Origin: an uncultured Bacteroidota bacterium
GTDB lineage: Bacteria; Bacteroidota; Bacteroidia; Chitinophagales; Chitinophagaceae
Direction of reading: 5' to 3'
Assembly: GCA_903858475.1 (NCBI GenBank)
Contig: CAIOIZ010000045.1
Coordinates: forward strand, 1 to 37,465
Length of the DNA stretch: 37,465 bases
This document shows, piece by piece, positions 5,699 through 32,388 of this stretch. The notes under the pieces were generated by a model. It made no database searches. It was not told the DNA's origin and was given only the letters and a program-made list of their open reading frames with translations. Each line of letters opens with the position of its first letter. The first letter of the stretch is position 1. A program made the translations under genes and the position numbers.

Positions 5699-5741
5699 CA
5701 AATATGTAAAATACAAAGGTAATGTAAGGTGATATATATCA
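5699..5741 (-). promoter_or_regulatory. FNR-like operator and -7 box for the persulfide dioxygenase gene
   Basis: The palindrome TGATATATATCA (5730-5741) matches the TGAT-N4-ATCA core of FNR-family sites. Downstream on the minus strand, CATATTTG (5706 to 5699) matches TAnnTTTG at five of six fixed positions. Their centres are 33 bp apart, as expected for an activator centred near -41.5. The ATG (5682) is 17 bp beyond the box. No good TTG -33 element is present, which also fits an activator-dependent promoter. The function is inferred. Confidence 0.6.
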
Positions 5742-6010
5742 GTTGCCAGGTTGATTCCCAATAGCAATCAGTGCTTCCTTCCCCATTTTCCCAATGAAAT
5801 TCGCTTCTAATTACACCAAATTATAAAAAACTAAGGGTCAATTTAGTTGTATCGAAGGCATACACAACAGTAATGGAGGATAACTTATTGTTGCCCTTTG
5901 GAACCAATAGGAGTAATTTATGGACATATTGCAGCCCCTGTTTTTTTAAAAAAGCAGTTTCTCCCTTGGGAAATGTGCATTAAAAAAAATAAAAATTCTC
6001 TATTAAATGA
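5742..6010. other. Intergenic stretch with no recognised feature
   Basis: This is the part of the 405-bp gap between two divergent genes that lies between the operator at 5730-5741 and the SWIB promoter at 6011-6040. It is AT-rich with several A and T runs. The only ORF of note is 36 codons (5873-5983) with no protein-like character. I see no terminator, repeat or RNA gene. Confidence 0.5.
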
Positions 6011-6040
6011 TTGACTAGGTAAATAATTAATTTATATTTG
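6011..6040 (+). promoter_or_regulatory. Bacteroidota-type promoter of the SWIB gene
   Basis: TTG at 6011-6013, a 19-bp spacer, and TATATTTG at 6033-6040 match the Bacteroidota sigma-ABfr consensus (TTTG, 19-21 bp, TAnnTTTG) at every fixed position of the -7 box. The start codon is 47 bp beyond the box. This is one of the two clearest promoters in the window. Confidence 0.75.
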
Positions 6041-6087
6041 ATATCGCAAATGCCGAACACTCATTAACATTCTAAATTTTAAACAAC

Positions 6088-6471
6088 ATGGCAACAAAGA
6101 AAGCAGCTCCTAAAAAAGCAGCAAAAAAAGCAGCTCCTAAAAAAGCAGTGAAGAAAGCAGCTCCTAAAAAAGCAGCAAAAAAAGTGGCTCCTAAAAAAGT
6201 AGCAAAAAAGAAATCTGCACGTAAACCATCAGCAGCATTTATGAAAGCGCTTACTCCAAGTGCTGAATTAGCAGCTGTAGTTGGAAGCAAAGCAATTCCA
6301 CGCACAGAAGTGGTTAAAAAAATCTGGGTATATATTAAGGCGAACAAATTACAAGATTCAAAAAACAGACGCATGATTAATGCGGATGCAAAATTGAAAC
6401 TTGTATTTAGTGGAAAAGGTCAAGTATCAATGTTTGATATGGCCAAACATCTTTCCAAGCACCTTAAATAA
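6088..6471 (+). CDS. SWIB-domain protein with histone-H1-like basic tail
   Basis: A 127-residue protein with two parts. Residues 4-46 are a lysine/alanine/proline tail built from four 9-residue units (KKAAPKKAA and variants), like the C-terminal tail of histone H1 and bacterial Hc1-type proteins, so DNA or RNA binding is likely. Residues 47-127 form a SWIB/MDM2-type domain, with ALTPSAELAAVVGS, RTEVVKKIWVYIKANKLQD and NRRMINADAKLKLVF. In eukaryotes this fold occurs in SWI/SNF subunits; it is also known from chlamydiae and many Bacteroidota, where its role is little studied. The gene is monocistronic, with a strong promoter and a strong intrinsic terminator, suggesting high expression as a nucleoid-associated protein (inference). 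Confidence 0.9.
   Translation: MATKKAAPKKAAKKAAPKKAVKKAAPKKAAKKVAPKKVAKKKSARKPSAAFMKALTPSAELAAVVGSKAIPRTEVVKKIWVYIKANKLQDSKNRRMINADAKLKLVFSGKGQVSMFDMAKHLSKHLK
6097..6204 (+). repeat. Four 27-bp in-frame repeats encoding the basic tail
   Basis: Codons 4-39 of the SWIB gene form four 27-bp units translating to KKAAPKKAA, KKAAPKKAV, KKAAPKKAA and KKVAPKKVA. The DNA units are near-identical (for example repeated gcagctcctaaaaaagca), so copy number could change by slippage or recombination without breaking the frame. Confidence 0.85.
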
Positions 6472-6480
6472 TAAGGCATT

Positions 6481-6520
6481 AAAAAAAGGGATATCGAAAG
6501 ATGTCCCTTTTTTTTCTTTC
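6481..6520 (+). terminator. Rho-independent terminator of the SWIB gene
   Basis: The stem GGGATATC / GATGTCCC (one G-U pair) closes on a GAAA tetraloop. It is preceded by an A-run and followed by a run of eight or more T. It begins 10 bp after the SWIB stop codon. Confidence 0.9.
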
Positions 6521-6607
6521 GACTTCAATTTTCCCGACCTATCAATACCTCGGCTATCACTTATTGCCAATAATCCCTTCCCCTCTGCCATTCAAATTGC
6601 TTATTGC

Positions 6608-6651
6608 TGATATTAATCAGTTGTAAAACTGAAATAGGTCACGTACTATTG
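6608..6651 (+). promoter_or_regulatory. FNR-like operator and -7 box for the PFOR operon
   Basis: CTGATATTAATCAG at 6607-6620 is a perfect 14-bp palindrome containing TGAT-N4-ATCA (core 6608-6619). TACTATTG at 6644-6651 matches TAnnTTTG at five of six fixed positions. The centres are 34 bp apart. The predicted transcript would have a leader of roughly 75 nt before the ATG at 6734. The operator and its flank (followed by GTTG) closely resemble the site at 5730-5741. Regulator identity is inferred. Confidence 0.65.
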
Positions 6652-6733
6652 ACGAGCATAATTCTAACTTTCAGCGTTATTACATTGTCCCCTTTTAAAG
6701 GGCATAGCAAATTAAAATTTGAAATAATTTACC

Positions 6734-8383
6734 ATGGCGAATACAGATATTACAAAACCGGTGGACCTTACATCGCATGCAGAAGGTACAGGCCCGCTCC
6801 GTTCAACTCGGCCACTTTATGTAGATTTCATGCCTCCTTGCAATAGTGCTTGTCCTGCTGGTGAAAATATTCAGGCATGGCTATCACATGCACAAGCTGG
6901 CAACTATTTTGAGGCCTTTCAATCTATAGTAGAAGACAATCCTTTTCCGGGATTAATGGGCCGTGTTTGCGTAAAACCCTGCGAAACAGGATGCAATCGC
7001 AATCACATTGACAATACCGTGAATATTCACGCAGTAGAAAGATATATTGGAGATGAAGCCATCAAGGAACAATGGCCCATACGATGCACTGCCAAACCAA
7101 GCGGAAAACGAGTGCTAGTTGTTGGGGCCGGCCCTGGTGGGTTATCGGCTGCTTATCAATTGGCACGCATGGGACATGCCGTTGAAATTTTTGAAGCAAG
7201 TGGTCATGCAGGCGGTTTGTTATGGTCTGGCATTCCTGATTATCGTTTGCCCAAAGAAATTTTGGATGCAGAAATACAGCGGATAGTAAATATGGGCGTT
7301 AAAATTCGACTCAACTACAAAGTAAAAGATATACAAGAAGAAAAAACTGCAGGTAAGTTTGATGCGGTGTACCTGGCTATTGGAGCACAGTTGATACATT
7401 CAGAAAATTTTCAACAAGACAATTCTGTTTATATCAGAGATGCATTTAGTTTCTTTCAAGAAGTAAAAACAAATTCCTCTCCCTACTTAAGGAAAAAAGT
7501 AGTGGTGTATGGTGGTGGCAAACTCGCTTTATATCTATCGCGCATCATTAAACGCTTTGGCTCTGAAGCAGCTGTTTATTTTCCAGGAGATAAAAAATTA
7601 ATGCCTGCCTATGATTATGAAACAGAAGATGCATTGGCAGAAGGTGTAGATGTGCAATTATTAAAATCCATTAACAAAATAGAAAACAAAAAAATTACCC
7701 TTGAAAATACCAAAGTAGAGAAAGGAAAAGTAGTAGGCCTTGGTACATTCGAAACCATTGATGCAGATATTTTAATCATGGCCAATCGCCAAGAATCGGA
7801 CAGTGGATTTTTAAGAAATATCAATACAATCAAAGTAAATGAGGATGGCACAGTGCAAATTGATGCACAAAGAATGACTGGAGAAGAAGGCATTTTTGCT
7901 GGTGGTGATATGCTGCCTGGAGAAAACAGGAGTGCCACAATTGCAATAGGACATGGGAAAAAAGCAGCACGGTATATGCATGGATACCTGCTGAAAGATC
8001 CCTATCAAAAACCTGACAAACACCCAACGGCTGGTTACCGCAAATTACATATGTGGTACCAAACCGATGCGCCACAGAAAACGCAAGAAAAGCTTGCACC
8101 AACTGAAGCAATAAAAAGTTTTGAAGAAATCATTGCTGGCCTTCCTGAACCTTCCGTTCGATTTGAAGCACAACGCTGCCTAAGTTGTGGCAACTGCTTC
8201 GAATGTGATGGCTGCTTTGGTGCTTGTCCTGAAAATGCCATTATAAAATTGGGCAAGGGCAACCGATACAAATTCAATTACAATGCTTGTACTGGCTGTG
8301 CAGTTTGCTACGAACAATGCCCTTGCCATGCAATAGAAATGATTCCTGAACCTGTTAATTCAACTAACGATGTCGAAAAATAA
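6734..8383 (+). CDS. GltD-like FAD/NAD(P) oxidoreductase with C-terminal 2x[4Fe-4S] ferredoxin domain
   Basis: A 549-residue flavoprotein related to the small subunit of glutamate synthase and to PreT of dihydropyrimidine dehydrogenase. The N-terminal Fe-S domain (about 30-100) has CNSACPAG and CVKPCETGCNR. An FAD Rossmann motif, VLVVGAGPGGLSAA, lies near residue 127, a NAD(P) motif VVYGGGKLAL near 256, and the second FAD motif GIFAGGDMLPGENRS near 385. The C-terminus (from about 478) carries a ferredoxin domain with CLSCGNCFECDGCFGACP and CTGCAVCYEQCP. It probably moves electrons between NAD(P)H and ferredoxin or the neighbouring PFOR; no glutamate synthase large subunit is present. Its stop overlaps the nifJ start by 14 bp, implying translational coupling. 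The NAD(P) motif has GGGKLA rather than the common GGGNTA. Confidence 0.85.
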   Translation: MANTDITKPVDLTSHAEGTGPLRSTRPLYVDFMPPCNSACPAGENIQAWLSHAQAGNYFEAFQSIVEDNPFPGLMGRVCVKPCETGCNRNHIDNTVNIHAVERYIGDEAIKEQWPIRCTAKPSGKRVLVVGAGPGGLSAAYQLARMGHAVEIFEASGHAGGLLWSGIPDYRLPKEILDAEIQRIVNMGVKIRLNYKVKDIQEEKTAGKFDAVYLAIGAQLIHSENFQQDNSVYIRDAFSFFQEVKTNSSPYLRKKVVVYGGGKLALYLSRIIKRFGSEAAVYFPGDKKLMPAYDYETEDALAEGVDVQLLKSINKIENKKITLENTKVEKGKVVGLGTFETIDADILIMANRQESDSGFLRNINTIKVNEDGTVQIDAQRMTGEEGIFAGGDMLPGENRSATIAIGHGKKAARYMHGYLLKDPYQKPDKHPTAGYRKLHMWYQTDAPQKTQEKLAPTEAIKSFEEIIAGLPEPSVRFEAQRCLSCGNCFECDGCFGACPENAIIKLGKGNRYKFNYNACTGCAVCYEQCPCHAIEMIPEPVNSTNDVEK

Positions 8384-11300
8384 AAAATTAATCGCTACGA
8401 TCGATGGTAATGAAGCAGCTGCGTATGTGGCTTACCGTACCAATGAAGTATGTGCCATCTATCCCATCACTCCTTCTTCTACCATGGCCGAATTGGCAGA
8501 TGAGTGGGCAGCTAAAGGACTAAAAAATATTTGGGGTGCTGTTCCTGATATCATGGAAATGCAAAGTGAAGCAGGTGCAGCAGGTACTGTACACGGTGCC
8601 TTACAAACCGGCTCACTAACTACCACCTTTACTGCTTCGCAGGGATTGATGCTGATGCTACCCAACATGTATAAAATAGCAGGAGAATTAACCCCTGCCG
8701 TATTCCATGTAGCAGCCCGTTCATTGGCGGCACAAGGGTTATCCATCTTTGGTGACCACCAAGATGTAATGGCTGCTCGCACTACAGGCTTTGCTATGCT
8801 AAGTTCTGTTAGTGTACAGGAAGCCCACGACTTTGCATTGATTGCACAAGTTGCTTCTTTAAAATCTAGAATTCCCATCATCCATTTCTTTGATGGTTTT
8901 AGAACCTCCCATGAAGTAAATAAACTAGCATTACTCAGCGACGAACAAATCAGATCGATGATTCCGGATGAATTAGTTTTTGCCCATCGCAGCAGGGGAT
9001 TGAATCCAGAACATCCATTTATTAGAGGTACTGCACAAAATCCAGATATTTATTTCCAAGGCAGAGAAACGGTGAATACGTTTTACAACAATATGCCAGG
9101 CATCGTAGAAGAAGTGATGAACGATTTTGCAGCCATGACAGGAAGAAAATATGATCTCTTCCAATATACGGGCGCACCGGATGCAGAAAGAGTTATCATT
9201 ATCATGGGCTCTGGCGGAGAAACCGTTGACGAAACCATGCAAGCACTTAATGCTGCTGGTGAAAAAACTGGCTTGGTGCAAGTACGTTTGTATCGTCCTT
9301 TCTCCTTAGAGCATTTGATAAAAGCCATCCCTGCTAGTGTAAAATCTATTGCAATACTAGATCGCACTAAAGAATCTGGTGCAGCAGGAGAGCCAATGTA
9401 TCAAGATGTATTAGCTACACTCGTTGAGGCTTTGCAAAAAGGTTTAATAAAAAAATTGCCAAACCTAGTAGGTGGCAGATACGGACTTTCTTCTAAAGAG
9501 TTTACACCTGCAATGGTGAAAGCCGTGTATGATGAACTTAAAAAAGAACATCCTAAAAATGGTTTCACCATCGGCATCAATGACGATGTAACACATACAA
9601 GTCTTAGTTACGACACAAGTTTCACATTGGATGAATCTACATGGAGACAAGGATTATTCTTTGGCTTAGGTGCTGATGGCACCGTTGGTGCAAATAAAAA
9701 TACCATTAAAATTATTGGAGAAAATACAGACCTCTTTGCACAAGGCTATTTTGTATATGATTCCAAAAAATCAGGTGCCAGAACAGTATCTCATTTACGT
9801 TTTGGCCCCAATCCTATTCGCGCTCCTTACCTGATTACAAAAGCAGATTTTATAGCTTGTCATCAATTTAATTTTATTGAGAAAGTAGAAATGCTTGACT
9901 TCGCAAAAGAAGGCGCCAGCTTCCTGATCAATAGCCCTTATGACAAAAATGAGGTGTGGAGTAAAATGACAGGACAAGTACAAAAAAGCATCATTGACAA
10001 AAAATTAAAAGTATTTGTAATTGATGCAACATCGGTTGCCAGGGATACGGGTATGACTGGACGTATCAATACCATCATGCAAACCTGCTATTTTGCATTA
10101 TCAGGTGTACTGCCAAGAGAAGATGCAATTAAGCAAATTAAAAAAGCCATTGAAAAATCATATTCAAGAAAAGGACAGAAAGTAATTGATCAAAACTTTA
10201 AAGCAGTAGATGCTACTTTGGCAAATTTATACGAAGTAGACTATCCTAAAAAAGTATCAGCTGCGGTGAATGTATTGAAGATAGTGTCTGATAAAGCACC
10301 AGATTTTGTAAAAGACATTACTGCTGTAATGATGGCTGGACATGGCGATGACTTACCCGTTAGTAAAATGCCCATTGATGGCACTTATCCAAGTGGCACT
10401 ACACAGTGGGAAAAAAGAAACATATCAGACCTGGTGCCATTATGGGAACCAGATTTATGTATCCAATGTGGTAACTGTGCTTATGTTTGCCCACACAGTG
10501 TCATCCGTGCAAAATTTTATCACAAAGATTATCTTGAAAAAGCAGCTGATGGATTTAAATCAGCCCCCATTAATGCCAGAGGATTTCCAGAAACCAATTA
10601 CACGCTACAAGTATATGTAGAAGATTGTACTGGTTGTAATCTCTGCGTGGAAGTTTGTCCTGCTTCAGATCCGTCTAACCGTAGCCGTAAGGCGATTAAT
10701 ATGGGTGAAAAAGAACCAATTCTTGAAACAGAAAAGAAAAATATAGAATTTTTTGAAAATATTCCATGGAATGATCGTTCTAAAATTGATTTCTCCACTG
10801 TTCATGGTGCACAGTTCTTAGAACCGCTGTTTGAATTCTCTGGAGCCTGTGCAGGATGTGGTGAAACACCTTACTTGAAATTGTTATCACAATTATTTGG
10901 TGATCGTTTATTGGTAGCCAATGCAACAGGTTGTTCTTCCATTTATGGTGGTAACCTACCTACTACTCCATGGGCTGTCAACAAAGATGGCCGTGGCCCG
11001 GCTTGGTCTAACTCCTTGTTTGAAGACAATGCCGAATTTGGTTTAGGCATGCGTATCACTGCCGACAAACAATTAGGTTCTGCTAAACAATATTTATTGG
11101 AACTTAAAAATGAATTGGGAGAAGCACAGGTGGATGAAATTCTCAATGCCAAACAAGTATTAGAATCCGAATTGGCATTGCAGCATTTGAGAGTACAAAA
11201 ATTAAAAGAACAATTGCGTACCATGAGCTCTTCTCCTGCACAACATTTATTATCTGTAGCAGACCAATTGGTTCGTAGAAGTGTATGGCTCATCGGTGGT

Positions 11301-11945
11301 GACGGATGGGCTTATGATATCGGTTATGGAGGCCTCGATCATGCATTAGCAAGTGGCAGAAACATCAATATAATGGTGCTGGATACAGAGGTTTATTCTA
11401 ATACTGGTGGACAGTCGTCTAAATCAACCCCTACAGCGGCCACTGCTAAATTTGCTGCTGGCGGTAAATCAGGTGGCAAAAAAGATTTGGCGATGCAAGC
11501 CATCTCTTATGGAAATGTATATGTGGCAAGGGTAGCATTTGGTGCCAACCCTCAACAAACTTTGTTGGCAATGAGAGAAGCAGAAGCATATGATGGACCA
11601 TCCTTGATACTGGCTTATAGCCATTGCATTGCACACGGCTATGACTTAAAAGATGGCTTGAGTCAACAAAACAAAGCAGTTGCAAGTGGACATTGGCCAT
11701 TATTAAGATACAATCCAGTATTGAGGAAGAAAAATCAAAATCCGTTTGTATTGGATTCAACAAGACCAACGATGGCGCTGAGGGATTATGCTTACAATGA
11801 GCTAAGGTATAAAGTACTCACCATGACAAATCCTGAAGTGGCTGAAAACTTGATGCAACATGCACAAGAATTGGTAAATCTAAAATGGAAGAATTATGAG
11901 GAACTGGCTACCAAAAAAGCAAGCGATTTTGTACCCATTGGTTAA
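8370..11945 (+). CDS. nifJ: Pyruvate:ferredoxin (flavodoxin) oxidoreductase, single-chain
   Basis: A 1191-residue homodimer-type PFOR: pyruvate + CoA + oxidised ferredoxin gives acetyl-CoA + CO2 + reduced ferredoxin. Domain I begins IYPITPSSTMAELADEWA. The inserted ferredoxin domain has two [4Fe-4S] motifs, CIQCGNCAYVCP near residue 697 and CTGCNLCVEVCP near 753. The C-terminal thiamine diphosphate domain shows GACAGCGETPY, ATGCSSIYGGN and, near 975, GGDGWAYDIGYGG followed by LDTEVYSNTGGQSSKSTPTA. The family is typically oxygen-sensitive. Its position between two flavoproteins is striking. It overlaps the upstream gene by 14 bp and is separated from the DHOD-like gene by 67 bp containing a SWIB relic. 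Length and motifs are complete. Confidence 0.95.
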   Translation: MSKNKKLIATIDGNEAAAYVAYRTNEVCAIYPITPSSTMAELADEWAAKGLKNIWGAVPDIMEMQSEAGAAGTVHGALQTGSLTTTFTASQGLMLMLPNMYKIAGELTPAVFHVAARSLAAQGLSIFGDHQDVMAARTTGFAMLSSVSVQEAHDFALIAQVASLKSRIPIIHFFDGFRTSHEVNKLALLSDEQIRSMIPDELVFAHRSRGLNPEHPFIRGTAQNPDIYFQGRETVNTFYNNMPGIVEEVMNDFAAMTGRKYDLFQYTGAPDAERVIIIMGSGGETVDETMQALNAAGEKTGLVQVRLYRPFSLEHLIKAIPASVKSIAILDRTKESGAAGEPMYQDVLATLVEALQKGLIKKLPNLVGGRYGLSSKEFTPAMVKAVYDELKKEHPKNGFTIGINDDVTHTSLSYDTSFTLDESTWRQGLFFGLGADGTVGANKNTIKIIGENTDLFAQGYFVYDSKKSGARTVSHLRFGPNPIRAPYLITKADFIACHQFNFIEKVEMLDFAKEGASFLINSPYDKNEVWSKMTGQVQKSIIDKKLKVFVIDATSVARDTGMTGRINTIMQTCYFALSGVLPREDAIKQIKKAIEKSYSRKGQKVIDQNFKAVDATLANLYEVDYPKKVSAAVNVLKIVSDKAPDFVKDITAVMMAGHGDDLPVSKMPIDGTYPSGTTQWEKRNISDLVPLWEPDLCIQCGNCAYVCPHSVIRAKFYHKDYLEKAADGFKSAPINARGFPETNYTLQVYVEDCTGCNLCVEVCPASDPSNRSRKAINMGEKEPILETEKKNIEFFENIPWNDRSKIDFSTVHGAQFLEPLFEFSGACAGCGETPYLKLLSQLFGDRLLVANATGCSSIYGGNLPTTPWAVNKDGRGPAWSNSLFEDNAEFGLGMRITADKQLGSAKQYLLELKNELGEAQVDEILNAKQVLESELALQHLRVQKLKEQLRTMSSSPAQHLLSVADQLVRRSVWLIGGDGWAYDIGYGGLDHALASGRNINIMVLDTEVYSNTGGQSSKSTPTAATAKFAAGGKSGGKKDLAMQAISYGNVYVARVAFGANPQQTLLAMREAEAYDGPSLILAYSHCIAHGYDLKDGLSQQNKAVASGHWPLLRYNPVLRKKNQNPFVLDSTRPTMALRDYAYNELRYKVLTMTNPEVAENLMQHAQELVNLKWKNYEELATKKASDFVPIG

Positions 11946-11954
11946 TTAATAATA

Positions 11955-11996
11955 GAAAACAGGCGCATCATCAATGCTGATGCCGGATTATTAAAA
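11955..11996 (+). pseudogene. Relic of a SWIB-domain gene between nifJ and the DHOD-like gene
   Basis: Translated from 11955, this short stretch reads ENRRIINADAGLLK. It aligns with residues 92-104 of the intact SWIB protein (KNRRMINADAKLK). Over the 27 bases matching 6364-6390, 22 are identical, and all five differences are third codon positions (aga/agg, atg/atc, att/atc, gcg/gct, gca/gcc). That is the pattern of a coding sequence diverging under selection, not of chance. Nothing SWIB-like survives on either side. The frame starts just after the nifJ stop and is closed by TAA soon after. The stretch also contains a small hairpin (GCATCA / TGATGC), which could be an alternative reason for its retention. 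Confidence 0.6.
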
Positions 11997-12012
11997 AATA
12001 AAATTTAAGAAA

Positions 12013-13002: not shown

Positions 13003-13033
13003 GCTTAGCCTGGTTCATTGATTCCATATTATA

Positions 13034-13066
13034 AGAAAGGGATATACTTGAAGTATATCCCTTTCT
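13034..13066 (+). terminator. Terminator of the PFOR operon
   Basis: A perfect inverted repeat with 14-bp arms (AGAAAGGGATATAC / GTATATCCCTTTCT) and a TTGAA loop begins 31 bp after the DHOD-like stop. It ends in CCCTTTCTGTT, so the T-tract is moderate. It is the only strong hairpin after the three-gene operon. Confidence 0.75.
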
Positions 13067-13300
13067 GTTAGTTGGGGGTATACCCAAATTTATCCTTTAA
13101 GCTATACATGCTACTATACTCCTCCTTGCTTGGTTGAATATGCCTTCTTACCGAAAAATCCGAAACCATTCAACAAGGCCTATTCAGCTCTATTGTATTG
13201 CTATCAAAGTGCCTATTCAAAGAATTAACAAGATGGCTTGGCTATAAAGGTTACCTTACCCGAATTGCTGGCAATGATGCGGGCATTCAAATAAACTATT
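13067..13300. other. Intergenic stretch with no recognised feature
   Basis: The rest of the gap between the PFOR operon terminator and the fasciclin gene. There is a 35-codon ORF (13140-13247) without recognisable character and no clear promoter match upstream of the fasciclin gene. I see no repeat, RNA gene or gene remnant. Confidence 0.5.
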
Positions 13301-13705: not shown

Positions 13706-13862
13706 TTTGCTGTATAATTTAAAGCTTAGATTGTAAAAAGCAAGCTGGCCAATGGCTGCTGCTTACGCCTGTTTCCACATAGTAAATATGTTTAACATAA
13801 CATTACCCATCGGAGGGTATGGAAATCTTATTAAAGTTTGCTATTTTTAACAAAACCAGTTT

Positions 13863-14708: not shown

Positions 14709-14744
14709 AATGTAATCTTGCCATTTCTTTTGTATTTTTAATTC

Positions 14745-21307: not shown

Positions 21308-21805
21308 TTAATTTCTTAATGAAACAAAGTCGGTTCTACCATAAGTGCCGGGCGAAGCATGCTCACCTGCTTTAAAACGAATGTTAACAAAATTGATACC
21401 GCTGATTTCTGTTAGATTATAAGTCAACTCTGCTAAATACGAACTTGCTCCGTAGGACCCCATTTCTTGGGTGAGATAACGGCTCTTTCGAATGGCTATA
21501 AATACCGTATCCTGTGACTGGCCCAGGGAATCCACTTTTATAGCTGGGTAAGTTAAATTTAGTAAATTTAGTATACTGCTTACCGTTAGTGAATCTTTTG
21601 AAATTGGCCGAGTCCGAATCATTGTTACTCCTTTCTTTGCATTGGGGTCAGGCTCCCACAAATAATGTTCATCTGTTTTAATAGTAGGCGAATCTGACTT
21701 AATAACAAAATCAGCTTCTTTAACAGCAGCTTCCTTGTCTGCTGTTTTTGTATTGCACTGCAATAAAAAGAAAAGGGCGAAAAGCGAAAGCAATCCAAAT
21801 TTCAT
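21308..21805 (-). CDS. Lipoprotein with GerMN-like domain
   Basis: A 165-residue lipoprotein. The signal sequence ends in LLQC with the lipid-anchored Cys at 17, followed by a charged linker. Residues 75-150 (SSILNLLNLTYPAIKVDS, later TVFIAIRKSRYLTQEMG, and SYLAELTYNLTEISGINFV) resemble GerMN domains, which occur in sporulation and envelope proteins; this match is by eye and tentative. It is probably anchored in the inner or outer membrane facing the periplasm. A perfect TAnnTTTG box and an FNR-like palindrome lie upstream, so expression may depend on a redox regulator. The carboxylase operon follows 47 bp downstream and may share its transcript. Confidence 0.75.
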   Translation of the reverse strand: MKFGLLSLFALFFLLQCNTKTADKEAAVKEADFVIKSDSPTIKTDEHYLWEPDPNAKKGVTMIRTRPISKDSLTVSSILNLLNLTYPAIKVDSLGQSQDTVFIAIRKSRYLTQEMGSYGASSYLAELTYNLTEISGINFVNIRFKAGEHASPGTYGRTDFVSLRN

Positions 21806-21881: not shown

Positions 21882-21926
21882 CAAAGTTAAGCCGAGCTTT
21901 ATTACCCAAAAATGATTCCTATCATT
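21882..21926 (-). promoter_or_regulatory. FNR-like operator and perfect -7 box for the GerMN-like lipoprotein gene
   Basis: AATGATTCCTATCATT (21911-21926) contains TGAT-N4-ATCA within a 6-bp-arm palindrome. TAACTTTG on the minus strand (21889 to 21882) matches TAnnTTTG perfectly. Their centres are 33 bp apart. The start codon is 77 bp beyond the box. The spacing repeats that seen at 5699-5741 and 6608-6651. Confidence 0.65.
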
Positions 21927-23666: not shown

Positions 23667-23681
23667 ACCAGCACAGTCAAT

Positions 23682-25889: not shown

Positions 25890-25910
25890 TAAGTAGATTT
25901 GAAAATTAGA

Positions 25911-27599
25911 TTACCCAACCCCTGCTAACGCTGATTTAGAAGCTAGTGCTGATTCCGTTTGTGCAGCATTCCAACTGACATATCCCCCAGAAAGATTATA
26001 CACTTCTTCAAATCCTTCCTGACGTAGGATGCGATGAGCAAGGTATCCCCTAAGGCCTGCCTCACAATAAATATAAATTTTCTTATCCTTGGGCAATTCC
26101 TGCAATCTTTCACGAATTTCATCAACAGGAATATTAATGGCTTGTCCAATATACCCTGCTTCAAATTCTTTAACGGTTCGCACATCAAGTAATAAACTGT
26201 CTGTAGACAAATCGGCCATTTCATTCCAATAAAATACTTTTAATCGATTGGTCATTATATTTTCAGCCACAAATCCAGCCATATTCACAGGATCTTTGGC
26301 CGATGAATAAGGAGGTGCATAGGCATGTTCAAATTCTGTTAACTCAAAAATATCGCTGCCTCTTTGTATTATAGAAGACATTATATCAATTCGCTTATCT
26401 ACCCCTTCATAACCGGCAATTTGTGCGCTTAACAATTTTCCATCCACCGGCGAAAAGGCAATTTGTATGGCCATCTGCTTAGCGCCAGGATAATAGCCCG
26501 CATGTGAACCACTGTGATTGGTGGAAACAATATGAGCAATATTTGCGCTAGTCAAATGCTTCGATGCTGTACCTGCAGTTGCAACTGTCATATCAAATAC
26601 CTTAACAATTGCAGTATTGATAGCTCCTTTGTATACATATTTATTTCCTAAGACAATATTGTTGGCACAAATTCTTCCTTGCTTATTGGCTGGTCCTGCC
26701 AGATAAGTTGGCATCGATTGTTTTGTTATCGGATTGGTAAATTCAATGGCGTCACCTACTGCATAAATGGAAGGATTTGATGTTTGCAGGTATTCATTTA
26801 CAAAAATACCTTTGGAAGTACCTAATTCTAAACCTGCCATTACCGCGAGCCTGGTATCTGGCCTTACGCCAATTGATAACAATACAATGTCAGCTGACAA
26901 TTGTTCTCCATCTTTAAATTGTACATTGATTCCATCAGCTGTTTTTTCGAATCCGCTGACTGTTGTACCTAAACGCAAATCAACCCCTTTTGAACGAATA
27001 TGTTGTTGTACCAATGCCGCTACAGGAAAATCCAATGGTGCTAAAATTTGGTTGCCCATTTCAACAATGCTCACCTGCATACCAAGTGCGTGCAGATTTT
27101 CTGCCATTTCAAGGCCAATAAACCCTGCCCCGATAATAATTGCCCTGCCAAATTGATGTTCGGTTACATACTTTTTGATGGTATCTGTATCCGTAACGTT
27201 CCGAAGTGTAAATATGCCAGGCAATTGAATGCCAGGTAAAGGTGGGCGAATGGGTTCTGCCCCAGGCGAAAGCACTAATTTATCGTAAGACTCCTCATAT
27301 TTTTCTCCAGTTAAGAGATTAATAGCAGTGATTGTTTTTGCACTGGCATCCACCCCTACTACTTCCGTTGAAATGCGAACATCTATATTGAATCTTTGCC
27401 GAAAGGAACTGGCTGTTTGTACAAATAATTTATTACGGTCTTTGATTACTTCTCCAATATAATAAGGAAGCCCACAATTGGCGTAGGAGATATATTCCCC
27501 TTTTTCAAAAATTACGATTTCAGCTTTTTCATCCAATCTTCTGAGACGAGCAGCTGTACTGGCTCCTCCTGCTACTGCACCGATGATAATGTATTTCAT
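25911..27599 (-). CDS. CoA-disulfide/persulfide reductase with C-terminal rhodanese domain
   Basis: A 562-residue flavoprotein disulfide reductase. I start at the ATG at 27599, which places the FAD motif KYIIIGAVAGGASTAARLRR at the very N-terminus; the longer frame adds 11 unlikely residues. The single active-site Cys of this subgroup is Cys42 in SYANCGLPYYIG. NAD(P)H binding is at AIIIGAGFIGLEMAEN and the second FAD site at IYAVGDAIEFTNP. The last 100 residues are a rhodanese domain with active loop IYCEAGLRG. Such fusions reduce CoA persulfide, polysulfide or CoA disulfide. Together with the CstB-like gene at 4261-5682 this suggests reactive-sulfur handling. A 9-bp-arm inverted repeat lies 11 bp upstream of the ATG. 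Confidence 0.9.
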   Translation of the reverse strand: MKYIIIGAVAGGASTAARLRRLDEKAEIVIFEKGEYISYANCGLPYYIGEVIKDRNKLFVQTASSFRQRFNIDVRISTEVVGVDASAKTITAINLLTGEKYEESYDKLVLSPGAEPIRPPLPGIQLPGIFTLRNVTDTDTIKKYVTEHQFGRAIIIGAGFIGLEMAENLHALGMQVSIVEMGNQILAPLDFPVAALVQQHIRSKGVDLRLGTTVSGFEKTADGINVQFKDGEQLSADIVLLSIGVRPDTRLAVMAGLELGTSKGIFVNEYLQTSNPSIYAVGDAIEFTNPITKQSMPTYLAGPANKQGRICANNIVLGNKYVYKGAINTAIVKVFDMTVATAGTASKHLTSANIAHIVSTNHSGSHAGYYPGAKQMAIQIAFSPVDGKLLSAQIAGYEGVDKRIDIMSSIIQRGSDIFELTEFEHAYAPPYSSAKDPVNMAGFVAENIMTNRLKVFYWNEMADLSTDSLLLDVRTVKEFEAGYIGQAINIPVDEIRERLQELPKDKKIYIYCEAGLRGYLAHRILRQEGFEEVYNLSGGYVSWNAAQTESALASKSALAGVG

Positions 27600-27609
27600 T
27601 GTAATAGAT

Positions 27610-27633
27610 TTTGTGTTCGTATTAGAACACAAA
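27610..27633 (-). promoter_or_regulatory. Inverted repeat (probable operator) before the CoA-disulfide reductase gene
   Basis: TTTGTGTTC, six bases (GTATTA), GAACACAAA: perfect 9-bp arms ending 11 bp upstream of the ATG. The position would let a bound repressor block transcription or early elongation. It matches no operator I know well. A TGAT-N4-ATCT near-palindrome lies further upstream at 27683-27694. Confidence 0.6.
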
Positions 27634-27704
27634 GAAAAAAAATATAAAAACCAATGATTGTAACATTAGTTACGGTAGTAAATGATTTGCATCTGCCTTA
27701 ATCT

Positions 27705-27764
27705 AAACCTTAACCTCTACCTCAACCTCTACCTCAACCTCTACCTCTACCTCTACCTCTACCT
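27705..27764. repeat. Hexanucleotide tandem repeat (CTACCT and variants), about 10 units
   Basis: Ten consecutive 6-bp units end in ACCT: aaacct, taacct, ctacct, caacct, ctacct, caacct, then four ctacct. The array touches the stop codon of the beta-barrel gene and lies about 105 bp upstream of the CoA-disulfide reductase ATG. The run of identical units at one end suggests recent slippage. Confidence 0.9.
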
Positions 27765-28309
27765 CACTCCTTTCCCTTTTCAGACCTACCCCAACTTATT
27801 TCATAACTAAAGCCAGCCAATAAAAATTGCTGATTCAGTTGCCCCCAGGTACAATTGTATTCAATATGTGGAGACCATTTGCCCCACTGAGTTAAGATAC
27901 CAGCGCCTGTATTGAAGGACCAGAATTTTGCCTTGATGTCTTGAACAAAGTTTTCTCCCCGCACTATTTCCTTTTCAGAAGTATGACTAAATCCTGTAAG
28001 CGGGTAAAATTTCCAATTTTTGCTCAACGGCATTAGATAATGAAAATTAAAGTCAAAATCCCAAGCCGACTTTTCAGTTTCCTCTGTTCCTACTATTTTT
28101 TTAACTGTAAAGAAGCGATTCATTTCAACACCCCCCACAAAACGTTCACTAAAATGATAAAAGCCGCTAAGGTTCAGCCCATTCATATCACTGCGCATAT
28201 TACGAATGGCGGCCACATCAAAACTAGCGGCATGTTGAGCCTGTAGGCTAAAAGAAACTATGATAAAAAAAAGCATGGCTAGTAATCGATGTTCCAAATA
28301 TTTTTTCAT
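27764..28309 (-). CDS. Small outer-membrane beta-barrel-like protein
   Basis: A 181-residue protein whose start I place at 28309, so that MKKYLEHRLLAMLFFIIVSF followed by SLQAQ forms a signal peptide. The mature part alternates aromatic and polar residues in strand-like segments (GLNLSGFYHFSERFVGG, WDFDFNFHYLMPLSKNW, FWSFNTGAGILTQW, FLLAGFSYEISW), the pattern of an eight-stranded OmpW/OmpA-like barrel. No enzymatic motif is seen. The stop codon abuts a hexanucleotide repeat that could alter the C-terminus if the stop were lost. The nearest upstream gene is divergent, across about 295 bp. Confidence 0.7.
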   Translation of the reverse strand: MKKYLEHRLLAMLFFIIVSFSLQAQHAASFDVAAIRNMRSDMNGLNLSGFYHFSERFVGGVEMNRFFTVKKIVGTEETEKSAWDFDFNFHYLMPLSKNWKFYPLTGFSHTSEKEIVRGENFVQDIKAKFWSFNTGAGILTQWGKWSPHIEYNCTWGQLNQQFLLAGFSYEISWGRSEKGKE

Positions 28310-28508
28310 TTCAATGTAAATTTTAATTGATAATAAGTATTGGCTCACTAAAGCATGAGCTAGAATGCAAAAGAATTAATTATAGCCCTGCAAAGGGGTG
28401 AGCAAGATTTGAAAAAAAAGTGATTCTTATCAGTTTTAAGCATATTTCCGGAGTAAAATAACAGGTATACAGGCCAAGATGCGAAGGAATGGTATTAGCA
28501 ATTTTAAA

Positions 28509-28524
28509 TATGATAATAATCATA
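28509..28524 (+). promoter_or_regulatory. FNR-like palindrome upstream of the lipoprotein gene at 28605
   Basis: TATGATAATAATCATA has 6-bp arms and contains TGAT-N4-ATCA. It lies 80 bp upstream of the ATG at 28605, in the spacer shared with the divergent barrel gene. The best -7 match at the expected distance is TACTTATT (28546-28553), only four of six fixed positions, so this member of the set is weaker. The rest of the 295-bp spacer shows nothing else. Confidence 0.45.
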
Positions 28525-28604
28525 AATTTCAAGTCAATAAACGAGTACTTATTTACGTTATTAATATGTCCATAGAATTTAATAAACCCTTTTAAAATAA
28601 CCAT

Positions 28605-29105
28605 ATGAAAAAGCTAACATTAATCCCTGCACTGGCCATTTCCCTTTTTTTTGTCGCCTGTAAAAAAGAAGCTCCCATCAGTACTTCCCAAGATCCCGCA
28701 CTTGATCAAATGATTCTGAATACTGCCGCCCCCACTGGCATTGGCAATAATACAGGCGAATACAAGCCTACTTCAGTCAAAGCAGTAGTAAGTTCTTATA
28801 TCAACGATGGAGTGGATGAATCCGCCAATTTAAAATCATATGTATTTGAATTCCGTTCCGATCATTCCATCATTGCTACTAACAATGGCAGTATGTATTA
28901 TGGACGTTGGCAATACAGCAATCCCGATATCATCAATTTTCAATTTGATTTCTTTGTTGCACCAATAGATGGCATTAATTTCCTAAATGCAGATTGGAAA
29001 ATATTAGAGATCAATAAAACAGATATGTTGCTTAGCTCTATGGCAAGCACTTATAGTAACGGCGCTCCTGAAAAAGCAAGATTCATACGCTTTCAACTCT
29101 TATAA
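28605..29105 (+). CDS. Lipoprotein of unknown function
   Basis: A 166-residue lipoprotein with signal sequence MKKLTLIPALAISLFF, lipobox FVAC (Cys19) and KKE directly after it, a common Bacteroidota pattern. The mature region is beta-rich. VKAVVSSYINDGVDESANLK, YVFEFRSDHSIIATNNG and YYGRWQYSNPDIINFQFDF resemble small lipocalin-like lipoproteins of this phylum, in which a Gly-x-Trp strand recurs. That fold assignment is a guess. The gene stands alone with its own terminator. A TGAT-N4-ATCA palindrome lies 80 bp upstream. Confidence 0.75.
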   Translation: MKKLTLIPALAISLFFVACKKEAPISTSQDPALDQMILNTAAPTGIGNNTGEYKPTSVKAVVSSYINDGVDESANLKSYVFEFRSDHSIIATNNGSMYYGRWQYSNPDIINFQFDFFVAPIDGINFLNADWKILEINKTDMLLSSMASTYSNGAPEKARFIRFQLL

Positions 29106-29144
29106 TAACAAGTAATTTAAGTATTTATAAATTTTTTATCACAA

Positions 29145-29190
29145 GGGTTCCCCGTATAGTTTGGACACTGGACGGGGGCCCATTTTTTTT
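29145..29190 (+). terminator. Rho-independent terminator after the lipoprotein gene
   Basis: GGGTTCCCCGT and ACGGGGGCCC pair (with one bulge and a wobble) around a 15-nt loop, followed by ATTTTTTTT. It begins 39 bp after the stop codon. Confidence 0.8.
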
Positions 29191-29577
29191 ACCTAAGCAG
29201 CTCCTATTTATTTTATTAAGAAAATACTTTAAAAATCATGGCTGAGTATCAGTAGAATAAAGTGCAAAGAAGAACTGTATAAATCATTAATGATACCTAG
29301 TGGAAATACTACAAATTCATAAATAGTTATAGCACACAAATAAGTGGTATTATATAAAAAATATCATATTATTTTAATTTATTAATTACAAAGCGGTATT
29401 TCTCAAAATGATATAAGATTTATTTGAAATGAAACTTCGAGGCCAGCTTATTTTAAGTTAATAAATATTAACAATTAAGCATATAACCAAGCACAATAAT
29501 ATCTTCAAATAGTTGTTTCTACTAAAGAAACCAATTGTATGCAATTTGCATAACAAACATTTAAACTCCATATCCAA
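29191..29577. other. AT-rich intergenic stretch with palindromes near the next gene
   Basis: No ORF, RNA gene or repeat array is seen. Three palindromes stand out: ATCATTAATGAT (29283-29294), GTTTCT-N5-AGAAAC (29515-29531) and TATGCAATTTGCATA (29538-29552), the last 25 bp before the next ATG. The final two are candidate operators of the downstream gene. No clean TAnnTTTG box was found at the usual distance. Confidence 0.5.
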
Positions 29578-30090
29578 ATGAAAACAGCCCCCTCAAAATC
29601 ACCACTTCAAGTAGTTGTTCAACAAGTAAACAATAACACCACAGCTTGGATGGGTCACCGTCAAAACAGTAATGATGAAATATTTGCAGGACAAACTTTC
29701 ACCTGTCCTACAGAAGGCGATTTAGACGCCATTGAAGTTTTTTCAACCTTGGTAGTACAACCAGGTCATGCAGTGATGACGATTCACCCATTTGACCCAG
29801 AAACAAAAAAATGGGGACCCGCTATGCAAAGCACGGCCCTAGAATTAGATAAATCTGACTCAGACAGATGGATTAGCTTTCCGCAAACTGGATTACACCT
29901 AACTAAAGGTGCTCATTATGGCTTTAGACTAGAAAGCCGCGATATGTATCTTGGTCTTGGGGAAGCAGCTGGTAGCCACGAACAACCTCCTTTGCTAGGT
30001 GGCCAGGAATGGAGTGCCAATACCATTGATCCTTCAGAAAAATATTATTCCTATCTAAGTCTTGCCTTTAAAGTAGAATTAAGGGCCTAA
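29578..30090 (+). CDS. Conserved-looking beta-sandwich protein of unknown function
   Basis: A 170-residue protein without signal peptide or lipobox. AGQTFTCPTEGDLDAIEVFS, HAVMTIHPFDPETKKWG and WISFPQTGLHLTKGAHYGFR suggest a jelly-roll or carbohydrate-binding-like beta-sandwich: such modules often contain a strand describing features added to a dataset of ligands, here ending GFRLESRDMYLGLGEA. I do not recognise a named family. The protein is presumably cytoplasmic unless exported by an unusual route. It is monocistronic, with palindromes upstream and a strong bidirectional terminator downstream. Confidence 0.7.
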   Translation: MKTAPSKSPLQVVVQQVNNNTTAWMGHRQNSNDEIFAGQTFTCPTEGDLDAIEVFSTLVVQPGHAVMTIHPFDPETKKWGPAMQSTALELDKSDSDRWISFPQTGLHLTKGAHYGFRLESRDMYLGLGEAAGSHEQPPLLGGQEWSANTIDPSEKYYSYLSLAFKVELRA

Positions 30091-30111
30091 AAAATAGCAA
30101 AACATTATTTC

Positions 30112-30148
30112 ATGCATCCATTATTTAAGAATGGATGCATTTTTTTTA
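30112..30148 (+). terminator. Terminator between convergent genes
   Basis: Perfect 11-bp arms ATGCATCCATT / AATGGATGCAT surround a 7-nt loop and are followed by seven T. It lies between the stop codons of the gene at 29578-30090 and the convergent gene at 30159-30869. The minus strand has no good T-tract after the hairpin, so it serves the plus strand mainly. Confidence 0.88.
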
Positions 30149-30158
30149 CCAGCATTTA

Positions 30159-30869
30159 TTAAGGATGCTGTTGGTTAATTAGTAGCTTATCATCTTTGAA
30201 GAAAGTTTCCCCCTTGATCAGCCAAGAAAATCCGAAGGCCAACAAAGCCAGGGTTTCAAAAACAAAAGTGGGCTTGTATTGACTGAATTGCTCCTCTAAG
30301 GAAGGGATAAGAGAAAACAATGCAATAGACAGGATACAAAAAATAATAACCCATCCGCAGACTTTATAAATAGTATTACGGCTTTTTTTAGGACCACAAA
30401 GCGGAGCTGTATGATTGGTTTTGGTAAACAATACCAATGAAAAAAAAGCAAAAGTGGAAAACAATAAGGTAGCTGCTAAATAATGGGTGGTATTTGAAAA
30501 AATATTCTCACCATCTACTATTCTGGAACAGTCCCCATTGTTATTTGCGCCATAATTAGTAGGGAAAACGGCCACCAATAGAGCAAAGCTTCCAGCTAGT
30601 TTTGAGGCCATCTTATCCATGCGATCGTACCCATTATAGGTAAAGAGAAAAAGTGATACAGCACATAATGTACCTACAAATAGATTGCCCATATCCGTAT
30701 AATAAAAATGACTGATGGATGCTGGAAATGCGCAGGGCTTTTGAAAAAACAGGTGCCCTACTATTAATGCAAATGGCAATGCCATACCCAGTATTCCAAC
30801 TGCTTTTCGGATAGTTAAATAAGAAATAACATACTGTTCATTCTTGTCGTTTGAAAATGCCAAATTCAT
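30159..30869 (-). CDS. Multi-pass inner-membrane protein of unknown function
   Basis: A 236-residue protein with about six hydrophobic helices: AVGILGMALPFALIVGHLF, NLFVGTLCAVSLFLFTY, LAGSFALLVAVFP, YLAATLLFSTFAFFSLVLF, VCGWVIIFCILSIALFSLI and FVFETLALLAFGFSWLI. A conserved-looking loop, FPASISHFYYTDMG, and the periplasmic-type segment NYGANNNGDCSRIV have no assigned function that I know. The start at 30869 is followed by a short polar N-terminus. Its leader contains a long inverted repeat overlapping a candidate -7 box, suggesting tight regulation. The protein resembles DUF998-like membrane proteins only in general layout. Confidence 0.75.
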   Translation of the reverse strand: MNLAFSNDKNEQYVISYLTIRKAVGILGMALPFALIVGHLFFQKPCAFPASISHFYYTDMGNLFVGTLCAVSLFLFTYNGYDRMDKMASKLAGSFALLVAVFPTNYGANNNGDCSRIVDGENIFSNTTHYLAATLLFSTFAFFSLVLFTKTNHTAPLCGPKKSRNTIYKVCGWVIIFCILSIALFSLIPSLEEQFSQYKPTFVFETLALLAFGFSWLIKGETFFKDDKLLINQQHP

Positions 30870-30877
30870 AAAAATTC

Positions 30878-30917
30878 ATTTGAGTTAAAAAGCAATTATC
30901 TGTCTAACTCAAATTTA
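30878..30917 (-). promoter_or_regulatory. Inverted repeat overlapping a -7 box before the membrane protein gene
   Basis: Perfect 10-bp arms ATTTGAGTTA (30878-30887) and TAACTCAAAT (30905-30914) are separated by 17 bp. On the minus strand TAAATTTG (30917 to 30910) matches TAnnTTTG exactly and shares five bases with one arm. A weak TTC lies 20 bp upstream of the box. Either an operator or a leader hairpin is possible. Confidence 0.55.
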
Positions 30918-31009
30918 TATTAATATAATGATAATATGAACTGCACTGGATCATTGACCAAAACCGTTCAATAGTCTGCATTAGTCAATATGATTTTATA
31001 AATTGCAGT

Positions 31010-31234
31010 ATGGTACCATCTAAAGATCCCCTACACGGTAAAACGCTTGCCTTTATACTAGAGGCATTGGTATTGCACTATGGTTGGGAAACTTTAGGAA
31101 ATATCGTTCGGATTAATTGCTTTAACAGTAACCCAAGTATTAATTCCAGTCTTAAATTTTTACGCAAAACCGATTGGGCAAGAAAAAAAGTAGAAGCACT
31201 GTATATTGATATGCTCGACGAAATGGAAGGGTAA
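31010..31234 (+). CDS. VF530 family (DUF2132) small DNA-binding protein
   Basis: A 74-residue protein that matches the VF530 family along its whole length: [20 protein letters not shown], then [34 protein letters not shown] and [11 protein letters not shown]. The family founder is a small alpha-helical protein described as DNA-binding; the biological role is not settled. The gene is complete and stands between a divergent membrane protein gene and a convergent polyferredoxin gene. No clear promoter match was found in the 140-bp upstream spacer. Confidence 0.9.
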
Positions 31235-31268
31235 TGCAAATTTCTTACCCGCTTACTTAGCGTACGAT

Positions 31269-32324
31269 TTATTTTTCCTTATACTCGGGCCGTTTAACCC
31301 AAGACCCCTCTCTTTGTTTTCGAATTAATAACCACCAGAAGAAAAAACAAGTTATCAGTACGCAGATTACAGTTACCATCGTTTCAGAAACATATCCAGT
31401 TAGATCAATCAATAATCCATCCTCTGCAAAAATGCCATAGCCCAATAATGCAGGAATACGATACCAATAATAGCAGGAAACGGCTGCCGCTGCATAAAAA
31501 CCAATTAGTTTTTTTACTGCTGGCCCTTTCAATAATTGTTGAAGTGCTAGATATAAGCTTAAGCTGATTAATAAACCAATTAGCGGATATTTATAAATAT
31601 TCCAAACAGCCATTAATCCATCCCAAGAATGATGATCAGGCACATGAAACCATCCCCAGATAAACCCTGGCAATCCGCCAATGGTTAACAAACCACTGAT
31701 TTGATGATAGAATGTTTTCCGAGTAATCAGCGGGTGCATTTGTGGGGTTGAGTCCGGACAAGGCAAGGAGCAGTTCACGCATTCGCTGCAATGTGCATTG
31801 GGCATGGAAGCTATCGTATTACTACCATACAATTTTTCAACCGGATGAACGGGACATAAACTAGCGCACCATCCACTTTTCCAATCAAAAAACAAGCCCA
31901 TTCCAAAAGCAATCAGTGCACAACAAAATAGTAAGATTGCCGTCGCAAGACCATTGGTATTGAACAATGCATGACGCAATGGAACCAATGCATATAGAGC
32001 AATCACAGATAAAACTTGCAACCTACCTTGCCAGCGCACAGGCATTATTTTATTGCTAGAGAAATTGAATTTACGGGGAAGTAAACTGGTGGTAGCCAAT
32101 GGGCAAATATTTCTCCATAGCCCCAAAGCAACTACCAATAATGCAGGCGCCACAGGAATCAATATATTCCAAAATAGCAAAATACCGAGAGTGGGAACCC
32201 ATATTAGACAACAGAAAATAAACAAACCAATCAGCCAAAGTAAAACTTGTAATAGAAGCCACCAACGCTTATTGGCTACAGACAATGGTTTTCCTCGCAT
32301 AATATTGGTCTTTAAATCCTGCAT
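31269..32324 (-). CDS. Membrane polyferredoxin-like protein (NapH/CcoG-like Fe-S motif)
   Basis: A 351-residue membrane protein with about eight hydrophobic helices. Between the fourth and fifth lies a cytoplasmic loop with Cys153-x3-Cys157 followed by AHCSECVNCSLPCPDS, giving Cys179-x2-Cys182-x2-Cys185-x3-Cys189-Pro, a classic [4Fe-4S] motif. A second, incomplete set (the CP of Cys157, Cys74) may ligate another cluster. This layout resembles NapH, NosR and CcoG polyferredoxins, which pass electrons across or along the inner membrane, but overall similarity is limited and no partner oxidase or nitrate/nitrous-oxide gene is nearby. An FNR-like operator and -7 box lie directly upstream, which supports a role under low oxygen (inference). 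Confidence 0.75.
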   Translation of the reverse strand: MQDLKTNIMRGKPLSVANKRWWLLLQVLLWLIGLFIFCCLIWVPTLGILLFWNILIPVAPALLVVALGLWRNICPLATTSLLPRKFNFSSNKIMPVRWQGRLQVLSVIALYALVPLRHALFNTNGLATAILLFCCALIAFGMGLFFDWKSGWCASLCPVHPVEKLYGSNTIASMPNAHCSECVNCSLPCPDSTPQMHPLITRKTFYHQISGLLTIGGLPGFIWGWFHVPDHHSWDGLMAVWNIYKYPLIGLLISLSLYLALQQLLKGPAVKKLIGFYAAAAVSCYYWYRIPALLGYGIFAEDGLLIDLTGYVSETMVTVICVLITCFFFWWLLIRKQREGSWVKRPEYKEK

Positions 32325-32341
32325 GAACTAGGGTTTCTCTG

Positions 32342-32388
32342 CAATAATATCAAAACAACGCAAATTACATGGCATGATTCTCATCATG
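32342..32388 (-). promoter_or_regulatory. FNR-like operator and -7 box for the polyferredoxin gene
   Basis: CATGATTCTCATCATG (32373-32388) contains TGAT-N4-ATCA in a 6-bp-arm palindrome. TATTATTG on the minus strand (32349 to 32342) matches TAnnTTTG at five of six fixed positions, with the same ATTG ending as the box at 6644-6651. Centres are 35 bp apart and the ATG is 18 bp beyond the box. Confidence 0.6.

Follow-up and report, generated by a model that had tools for sequence, protein, structure and literature searches.

Tandem CRP/FNR-Type Operators and a Candidate Receiver-CRP Activator of Low-Oxygen Genes in the Bacteroidia

The window analyzed here, a 37,465-nucleotide contig from an uncultured member of the Chitinophagaceae (CAIOIZ010000045.1; contig C45 of a 3.06-Mb, 165-contig genome, G000), raises the question of which protein reads the palindrome TGAT-N4-ATCA that recurs upstream of its genes, among them a pyruvate:ferredoxin oxidoreductase (PFOR) operon, a CstB-like gene, and a polyferredoxin gene. 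An initial annotation had placed five such sites under a single FNR-like activator of the class II type. We consider it likely that the palindromes are class II CRP/FNR-type operators whose likeliest activator is a fusion of a receiver domain to a CRP/FNR-type protein (REC-CRP), which would act with a FixL-like kinase to switch on low-oxygen genes. The closest named relatives by the first protein of the PFOR operon are mostly metagenome genomes labelled Chitinophagaceae, Chitinophagales, and Sediminibacterium.

All five annotated sites were recovered by motif scan, and a sixth match was found at 28421-28432 in the intergenic region that also holds the 28511 site. These six matches compare with a mean of 1.23 in 100 shuffles (standard deviation 1.22, largest 5). 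None of them lies inside a plausible gene when the window is read by eye; a mechanical model of open reading frames (ORFs) leaves four intergenic and puts two inside ORFs that we take to be spurious. For the relaxed form TGAYN4RTCA, five of seven matches in the window are intergenic, and the same half-sites at other spacers give 0/4 (N3), 0/0 (N5), 0/1 (N6), and 0/1 (N2). The window palindromes all contain TGA-N6-TCA, the core of CRP/FNR-type operators. The longer FNR form, TTGAT-N4-ATCAA, is not seen in the window: none of the six sites has a T before and an A after the 12-mer.

The PFOR promoter and a 22-bp tandem operator

The promoter region of the PFOR operon is where the arrangement of these sites was first noticed. 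In what follows, the gap is the number of base pairs (bp) between a palindrome and its -7 box, and boxes are scored against the six consensus positions of TAnnTTTG.

6608-6619, plus strand: distal tandem palindrome TGATATTAATCA, part of TGAN6TCA-N10-TGAN6TCA and present in relatives too
6630-6641, plus strand: proximal tandem palindrome TGAAATAGGTCA, at the class II position of the promoter common to relatives, with a box at gap 23
6644-6651, plus strand: TACTATTG, the -7 box initially annotated, probably not the conserved promoter
6665-6672, plus strand: -7 box TAACTTTC of the PFOR operon promoter, matching 5/6 consensus positions
6734-8383, plus strand: NAD(P)-binding GltD-like Fe-S protein, first gene of the PFOR operon (Pyr_redox_2, Fer4_20; NF009410)
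8370-11945, plus strand: pyruvate:ferredoxin oxidoreductase (TIGR02176, 1777 bits)

The two palindromes, TGATATTAATCA-gttgtaaaac-TGAAATAGGTCA, lie exactly 22 bp apart. Close PFOR-partner orthologues carry the same upstream tandem of TGA-N6-TCA palindromes with an N10 spacer: among the 14 closest loci (L070-L083; L099, a near-duplicate of L075, was excluded), nine have both palindromes perfect, four have one half-site broken, and one has a single palindrome. Of the 80 named PFOR-partner loci, 11 have an exact TGATN4ATCA in the 450 bp upstream, the remainder being mostly distant, largely non-Bacteroidota homologues. The initial annotation had paired the distal palindrome with TACTATTG. Both elements exist, and the pair that relatives share is the proximal palindrome at 6630-6641 with TAACTTTC. 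The statement of that annotation that no good TTG precedes the boxes does not hold everywhere either, since TTG-N20-TACTATTG is found at the 6608 site and TTG-N17-TAACTTTG at the 21913 site. Two further features of this region were read by eye. The operon is preceded by a gene for a small, Lys/Ala-rich, SWIB-like protein (6088-6471), and a short stretch after PFOR (about 11951-11990) resembles a remnant of that gene's coding sequence (NRRxINADA).

Two other window sites could be followed through orthologues of the genes behind them.

4261-5682, minus strand: CstB-like protein with a metallo-beta-lactamase (MBL) fold and rhodanese (Lactamase_B plus two rhodanese stretches)
5699-5706, minus strand: -7 box CATATTTG, gap 23, 5/6
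5730-5741, minus strand: palindrome TGATATATATCA upstream of the CstB-like gene, from the motif scan and orthologue comparison
31269-32324, minus strand: weakly NapH-like polyferredoxin
32342-32349, minus strand: -7 box TATTATTG, gap 25 (orthologue average 23)
32375-32386, minus strand: palindrome TGATGAGAATCA upstream of the polyferredoxin gene, from the motif scan and orthologues

The initial annotation had tied its proposal to conservation, and TGA-N6-TCA does recur upstream of orthologues of all three target genes. CstB-like orthologues have one palindrome each, usable in 25 of 29 loci (some of the other four are cut by contig ends); polyferredoxin orthologues have a usable palindrome in 14 of 22 loci, with eight lacking one, again with some cut by contig ends. 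The mean match to TAnnTTTG peaks at gap 23 in every set, single loci shifting by one or two bases: 4.60/6 in the CstB set (25 loci; other gaps 1.69, standard deviation 0.44), 4.36 in the polyferredoxin set (14 loci; 2.00, 0.46), and 3.63 in the PFOR set (1.85, 0.34), whose 19 loci were picked for showing a palindrome and not for a box. According to the available part of PMC9723704, the -7 box of Flavobacterium psychrophilum reaches from -12 to -5, and a gap of 23 therefore centers the palindrome at -41.5. Computed in this way from the F. psychrophilum box, the predicted operator position is that of a class II activator. In the part of PMC7713065 available to us, most activating Fnr boxes of Sphingopyxis granuli, including those of ccoN and uspA, likewise lie at or near -41.5. 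The class II activation initially proposed is supported to the extent that the palindrome and its distance to the box recur upstream of PFOR, CstB-like, and polyferredoxin orthologues.

The geometry can also be followed through the whole genome. TGATN4ATCA followed by TANNNTTG at 10-40 bp gives 21 matches (one palindrome counted twice), of which seven fall at gap 23-25 and 14 are spread over the other 28 gap values. Three window sites belong to the group at gap 23-25. Its other members are the promoters of a beta-eliminating (tryptophanase-like) lyase, a malate/lactate-family dehydrogenase, and a protein that by our reading belongs to the outer membrane, together with one site that precedes a possible start by only a few bases. 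A scan with a nine-base box, TANNNTTTG, was mis-specified and its counts were not used.

The tandem is a genuine unit in its own right. Across 147 family genomes the tandem pattern occurs 768 times, versus 20 for a reversed control, and is present in 123 of them; in a class-wide sample it is carried by 134 of 198 genomes. Pairs of TGAN6TCA at a distance of 22 number 12 in the 80 PFOR loci, where the phasing was first noticed, versus a mean of 0.125 at other distances, and 13 versus 0.125 in 30 REC-CRP loci, one of these 13 (L231) being the tandem locus that led to the fusion protein. Four further pairs at this distance in genome stretches are the known tandems of contigs C71 and C33 and give no independent support. 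The window genome has five tandems: one at the PFOR operon, two on C33, and two on C71. Those on C33 precede genes for a 4Fe-4S dicluster protein and a NiFe-hydrogenase small subunit (hypA divergent). On C71, one lies 245 bp from a fused ccoNO gene; the other is separated by 486 bp from a ccoI-like gene that follows it, and the scan gave no gene start up to 350 bp from this second tandem. Reading 22 tandem loci, largely by eye from sequence and not by family search, gave as targets ccoN or ccoNO, ccoI, hydrogenase, hypC, UspA, PFOR, a cydA/CstB pair, a PEP-synthase-like gene, and a BON-domain-like protein; others are lipoprotein-like or unrelated genes, and one tandem (L229) falls inside a short ORF. 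On this reading the make-up of the targets is that of a low-oxygen regulon. As a separate observation, one relative (G024, C6:776-831) has three TGAN6TCA palindromes in a row with a 22-bp period, scored as two overlapping tandem matches, upstream of a protein read as a 4Fe-4S dicluster protein.

The receiver-CRP fusion and its kinase

Three genes in the genome encode an HTH_Crp_2 domain, and the C71 copy is the final part of a receiver-CRP fusion. An assembly break divides the gene of this fusion between the end of C107 and the start of C71; at the end of C107 a FixL-like kinase gene directly precedes the receiver part, and C71 also holds a cbb3 operon along with its two tandems. REC-CRP thus joins a receiver, a cNMP-binding-like domain, and HTH_Crp in one protein. 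In the 30 best-scoring REC-CRP loci, a FixL-like kinase gene is adjacent in 17 and ccoI is a neighbor in 12, and the one locus left over lies near a contig end. This linkage of kinase and regulator genes, together with the cbb3 genes among the tandem targets, fits a system of the FixL/FixK type.

All 30 proteins share the recognition helix GTATESLIR. The receiver scores 97 bits against Response_reg and has the phospho-acceptor Asp, Thr/Ser, and Lys patterns of a response regulator in 30/30. No cysteine follows residue 125 in 27 of the 30 (the other three have two, two, and one), and the [4Fe-4S] cysteines of FNR proper were not found in these 30 proteins. The FNR-like factor initially proposed stands as to its CRP/FNR type; with a cysteine-free CRP part in most copies, it is likely REC-CRP and not FNR. 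For the kinase PAS domain of the window genome, Sinorhizobium meliloti FixL is the best match among solved structures (4.8e-14); the PAS domain of the G100 copy matches DosP first, then FixL. What we take to be the FixL ligand His is kept in 18/18 kinases and the accompanying Arg in 17/18.

The number of tandems follows the presence of REC-CRP. Family genomes with the fusion average 6.67 tandems versus 1.35 without (107 vs 40 genomes; Mann-Whitney p 1.6e-12), and in the class outside the family the averages are 5.68 versus 1.14 (93 vs 101 genomes; p 3e-18), both tests ignoring relatedness. Absence was taken as a best E value above 1e-60 in the class or above about 1e-80 in the family, and the window genome was counted as positive despite its split gene. 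Some large family genomes that lack REC-CRP have few tandems or none: 0 in G060 (5.8 Mb), 0 in G101 (5.9 Mb), 0 in G145 (5.4 Mb), and 2 in G096 (6.2 Mb).

Taken together, these observations suggest the following sequence of events. At low oxygen, O2 would leave the heme of the FixL-like PAS histidine kinase, and the now active kinase would phosphorylate the fused receiver of the REC-CRP encoded beside it. A REC-CRP dimer on TGA-N6-TCA at -41.5 would then contact RNA polymerase at promoters whose -7 box follows TAnnTTTG. In many of them, that of PFOR included, a second dimer may bind cooperatively at about -63.5, exactly two helical turns (22 bp) farther from the gene. The genes so activated would be those for cbb3 oxidase, NiFe hydrogenase, UspA, PFOR, and electron carriers. 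We lean, somewhat less firmly, toward a wider version of this proposal, in which much of the class Bacteroidia would use a one-protein counterpart of FixJ-FixK, running from kinase to REC-CRP and from two dimers at -63.5/-41.5 directly to respiration, hydrogenase, and PFOR genes. If true, REC-CRP would be a phosphorylation-gated CRP/FNR regulator serving the phylum as its FNR counterpart, and the low-oxygen switch of abundant Bacteroidota would become directly testable: the tandem operator offers a simple sequence handle for cataloguing regulon members in any genome, and the fusion could be removed by deleting one gene.

Several observations weigh against this explanation, in addition to the relatedness that both tests ignore. 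At least four tandems occur without REC-CRP in 10/101 class and 4/40 family genomes, and none occurs despite REC-CRP in 6/93 and 3/107, respectively; these counts derive from scoring only the best 10-14 candidates per genome, and fragmented assemblies may hide genes that are split or divergent. The first acidic pair of the receiver is matched by pattern in 23/30 proteins and missed in 7/30. The His and Arg of the kinase occur also in PAS domains that do not bind heme. Five Chitinophagaceae PFOR-partner homologues of 55-56% identity (L084-L088) lack the palindrome, exact or with one mismatch, as does L043. Two other HTH_Crp_2 genes exist in the genome, and the one on C67 has a similar recognition helix. 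Contrary to expectation, the motif is not enriched between genes in 15 stretches of C5, C11, C49, and C138 (295 kb, selected without regard to regulators or tandems and read with a mechanical gene model), where 1/22 TGATN4ATCA and 3/28 TGAYN4RTCA matches are intergenic. Finally, neither the CstB nor the polyferredoxin loci have a palindrome pair at distance 22 (the CstB loci have four at 21), the gene-side half-site is TGAC in 25/25 CstB sites, where 26 tandems mostly have T as the last base, and in 20 of 29 relatives' loci (L159-L187) the CstB-like gene has a CRP/FNR gene other than REC-CRP no more than 1.5 kb away.

Other readings of the sites

The last two points raise the strongest alternative, that the CstB-like gene (site 5730) belongs to a separate regulon of the neighboring CRP/FNR protein, which may sense sulfide or persulfide. 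This protein has the helix SREV[IV]SRL and a CX5C pair (G..CA....C) in 16 of the 20 loci, the other four being cut before the pair, and we regard it as a candidate sulfide- or persulfide-sensing regulator. The half-site count, made with one site per locus and without two further palindromes (L184, L187), favors this separation. The window genome itself fits it less well: its CstB-like site has TGAT on both sides, and its copy of the CX5C regulator (C162, L038) is away from the CstB-like gene and has Val in the helix where the 20 others have Glu. In another genome (G091), moreover, a CstB paralogue sits behind a tandem site. We put a separate regulon at slightly short of an even chance, and the single regulator initially proposed for all sites is accordingly doubtful for this gene.

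A different CRP/FNR protein could instead bind the window sites and respond to NO or oxygen, above all the one encoded on C67 (helix VETVIRT). This HTH_Crp_2 protein is encoded beside a cytochrome c gene and near a ScdA/hemerythrin gene. Its surroundings (L264) contain class II-like sites at 9495, 10320, and 11591, upstream of a DUF7670 gene, a hemerythrin/ScdA_N gene, and a protein without a family match, and the Glu and Arg of its helix fit the FNR pattern. The number of tandems follows REC-CRP, in a comparison made for REC-CRP only and not for the C67 type, and we judge this alternative unlikely. In its own right, the cluster at L264 (G000 C67, 9078-12208), in which the regulator gene lies near hemerythrin/ScdA_N, DUF7670, no-family, and cytochrome c-like genes and several genes have class II-like sites, is perhaps NO- or denitrification-linked.

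Alternatively, the palindromes could be operators of a repressor and not sites of class II activation. At the PFOR operon, a TTG stands 20 bp ahead of TACTATTG (6644), in a promoter that the proximal palindrome would cover. At the 5730 site, TACCTTTG is a perfect box at gap 8 and outscores CATATTTG (5/6). The average gap of 23 in three orthologue sets is the position of a class II activator, and repression seems to us distinctly improbable.

How far chance could account for the sites depends on the rest of the genome, which has 139 TGAT-N4-ATCA matches versus 62 of the reversed pattern. Of the first 15 genome sites in contig order, 13 are inside long ORFs. The initial annotation had named an equal frequency inside and between genes as evidence against its proposal; the motif does behave as background in the 295 kb of unselected stretches, and not in the window. 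In five stretches selected because they hold regulator or tandem sites, a bias that bears on both counts, 7/9 TGATN4ATCA and 13/16 TGAYN4RTCA matches are intergenic. Most genome copies thus resemble background; the exceptions are a minority grouped in a few places, and the regulon would therefore be small and clustered. That the window sites are chance matches in AT-rich intergenic DNA, as the intragenic majority (13/15, and all but 1/22 of the unselected matches) might suggest, is hardly credible given their excess, their recurrence upstream of orthologues, the 22-bp phasing, and the fixed box distance, and for the PFOR, CstB, and polyferredoxin sites a chance origin is very unlikely on present evidence; it may yet apply to 21913, 28421, and 28511.

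Remaining window sites and related systems

The other three palindromes of the window are candidate operators, identified by their sequence.

21882-21889, minus strand: -7 box TAACTTTG, 6/6, gap 23
21913-21924, minus strand: palindrome TGATAGGAATCA upstream of the gene at 21308-21805 (minus strand), from the motif scan
28391-28398, minus strand: -7-like box CCCCTTTG, gap 22, 4/6, weak
28421-28432, minus strand: sixth palindrome TGATAAGAATCA, upstream of an outer-membrane barrel gene at 27764-28348 (minus strand; probable ATG start at 28309)
28511-28522, plus strand: palindrome TGATAATAATCA upstream of the gene at 28605-29105, the weakest member
28546-28553, plus strand: weak box TACTTATT for the 28511 palindrome, gap 23, 4/6

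The gene at 21308-21805 had no match in family searches, GerMN-like being the name given to it in the initial annotation. The four -7 boxes of that annotation are all present as described, with rivals at 5730, where the box at gap 8 is better, and at 32375, where a 5/6 match at gap 16 ties with TATTATTG. For the lipoprotein gene at 28605, which it had added as a probable member, the palindrome is there and the box is only weak (4/6); the matches of CCCCTTTG and TACTTATT are no better than other places within their own stretches. Around the 3' end of the outer-membrane barrel gene (about 27712-27770) there is a simple repeat of CCTCTAC/CCTCAAC.

As far as the accessible open-licence literature goes, we found neither a general oxygen regulator of the Bacteroidota nor the REC-CRP/tandem system described, and the available parts of PMC1183210 and PMC4999443 contain nothing on a receiver-CRP architecture. 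Within the phylum, the nearest comparison is MalR, a group of CRP/FNR homologues from Flavobacteriales and Saprospiraceae in a reactor meta-regulon study (PMC8510549). MalR shares the family and the phylum and differs in that carbon sensing is predicted for it in the part available; no word starting with receiver or Chitinophag occurs in the main text. The Fnr regulon of Sphingopyxis granuli, in the part of PMC7713065 available, resembles the present sites in having its palindrome at or near -41.5 and ccoN, uspA, and other low-oxygen genes as targets. Compared with such a class II FNR regulon, the proposed factor has a receiver domain and, in most copies, no FNR-type cysteines, and the set described here has a tandem of 22-bp period, the Bacteroidota -7 box, and PFOR, CstB-like, and NapH-like genes. 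The rhizobial FixL-FixJ-FixK2 and hFixL-FxkR-FixK systems, as given in the available parts of PMC7888657 and PMC9104804, likewise combine a FixL-type kinase, a CRP/FNR-type activator, and cbb3 targets. In rhizobia, a cascade of individual proteins provides the comparable parts (PMC7888657, in the part available), whereas here receiver and CRP activator are one protein, and phosphorylation would act directly on the CRP-type factor and not on the transcription of fixK.

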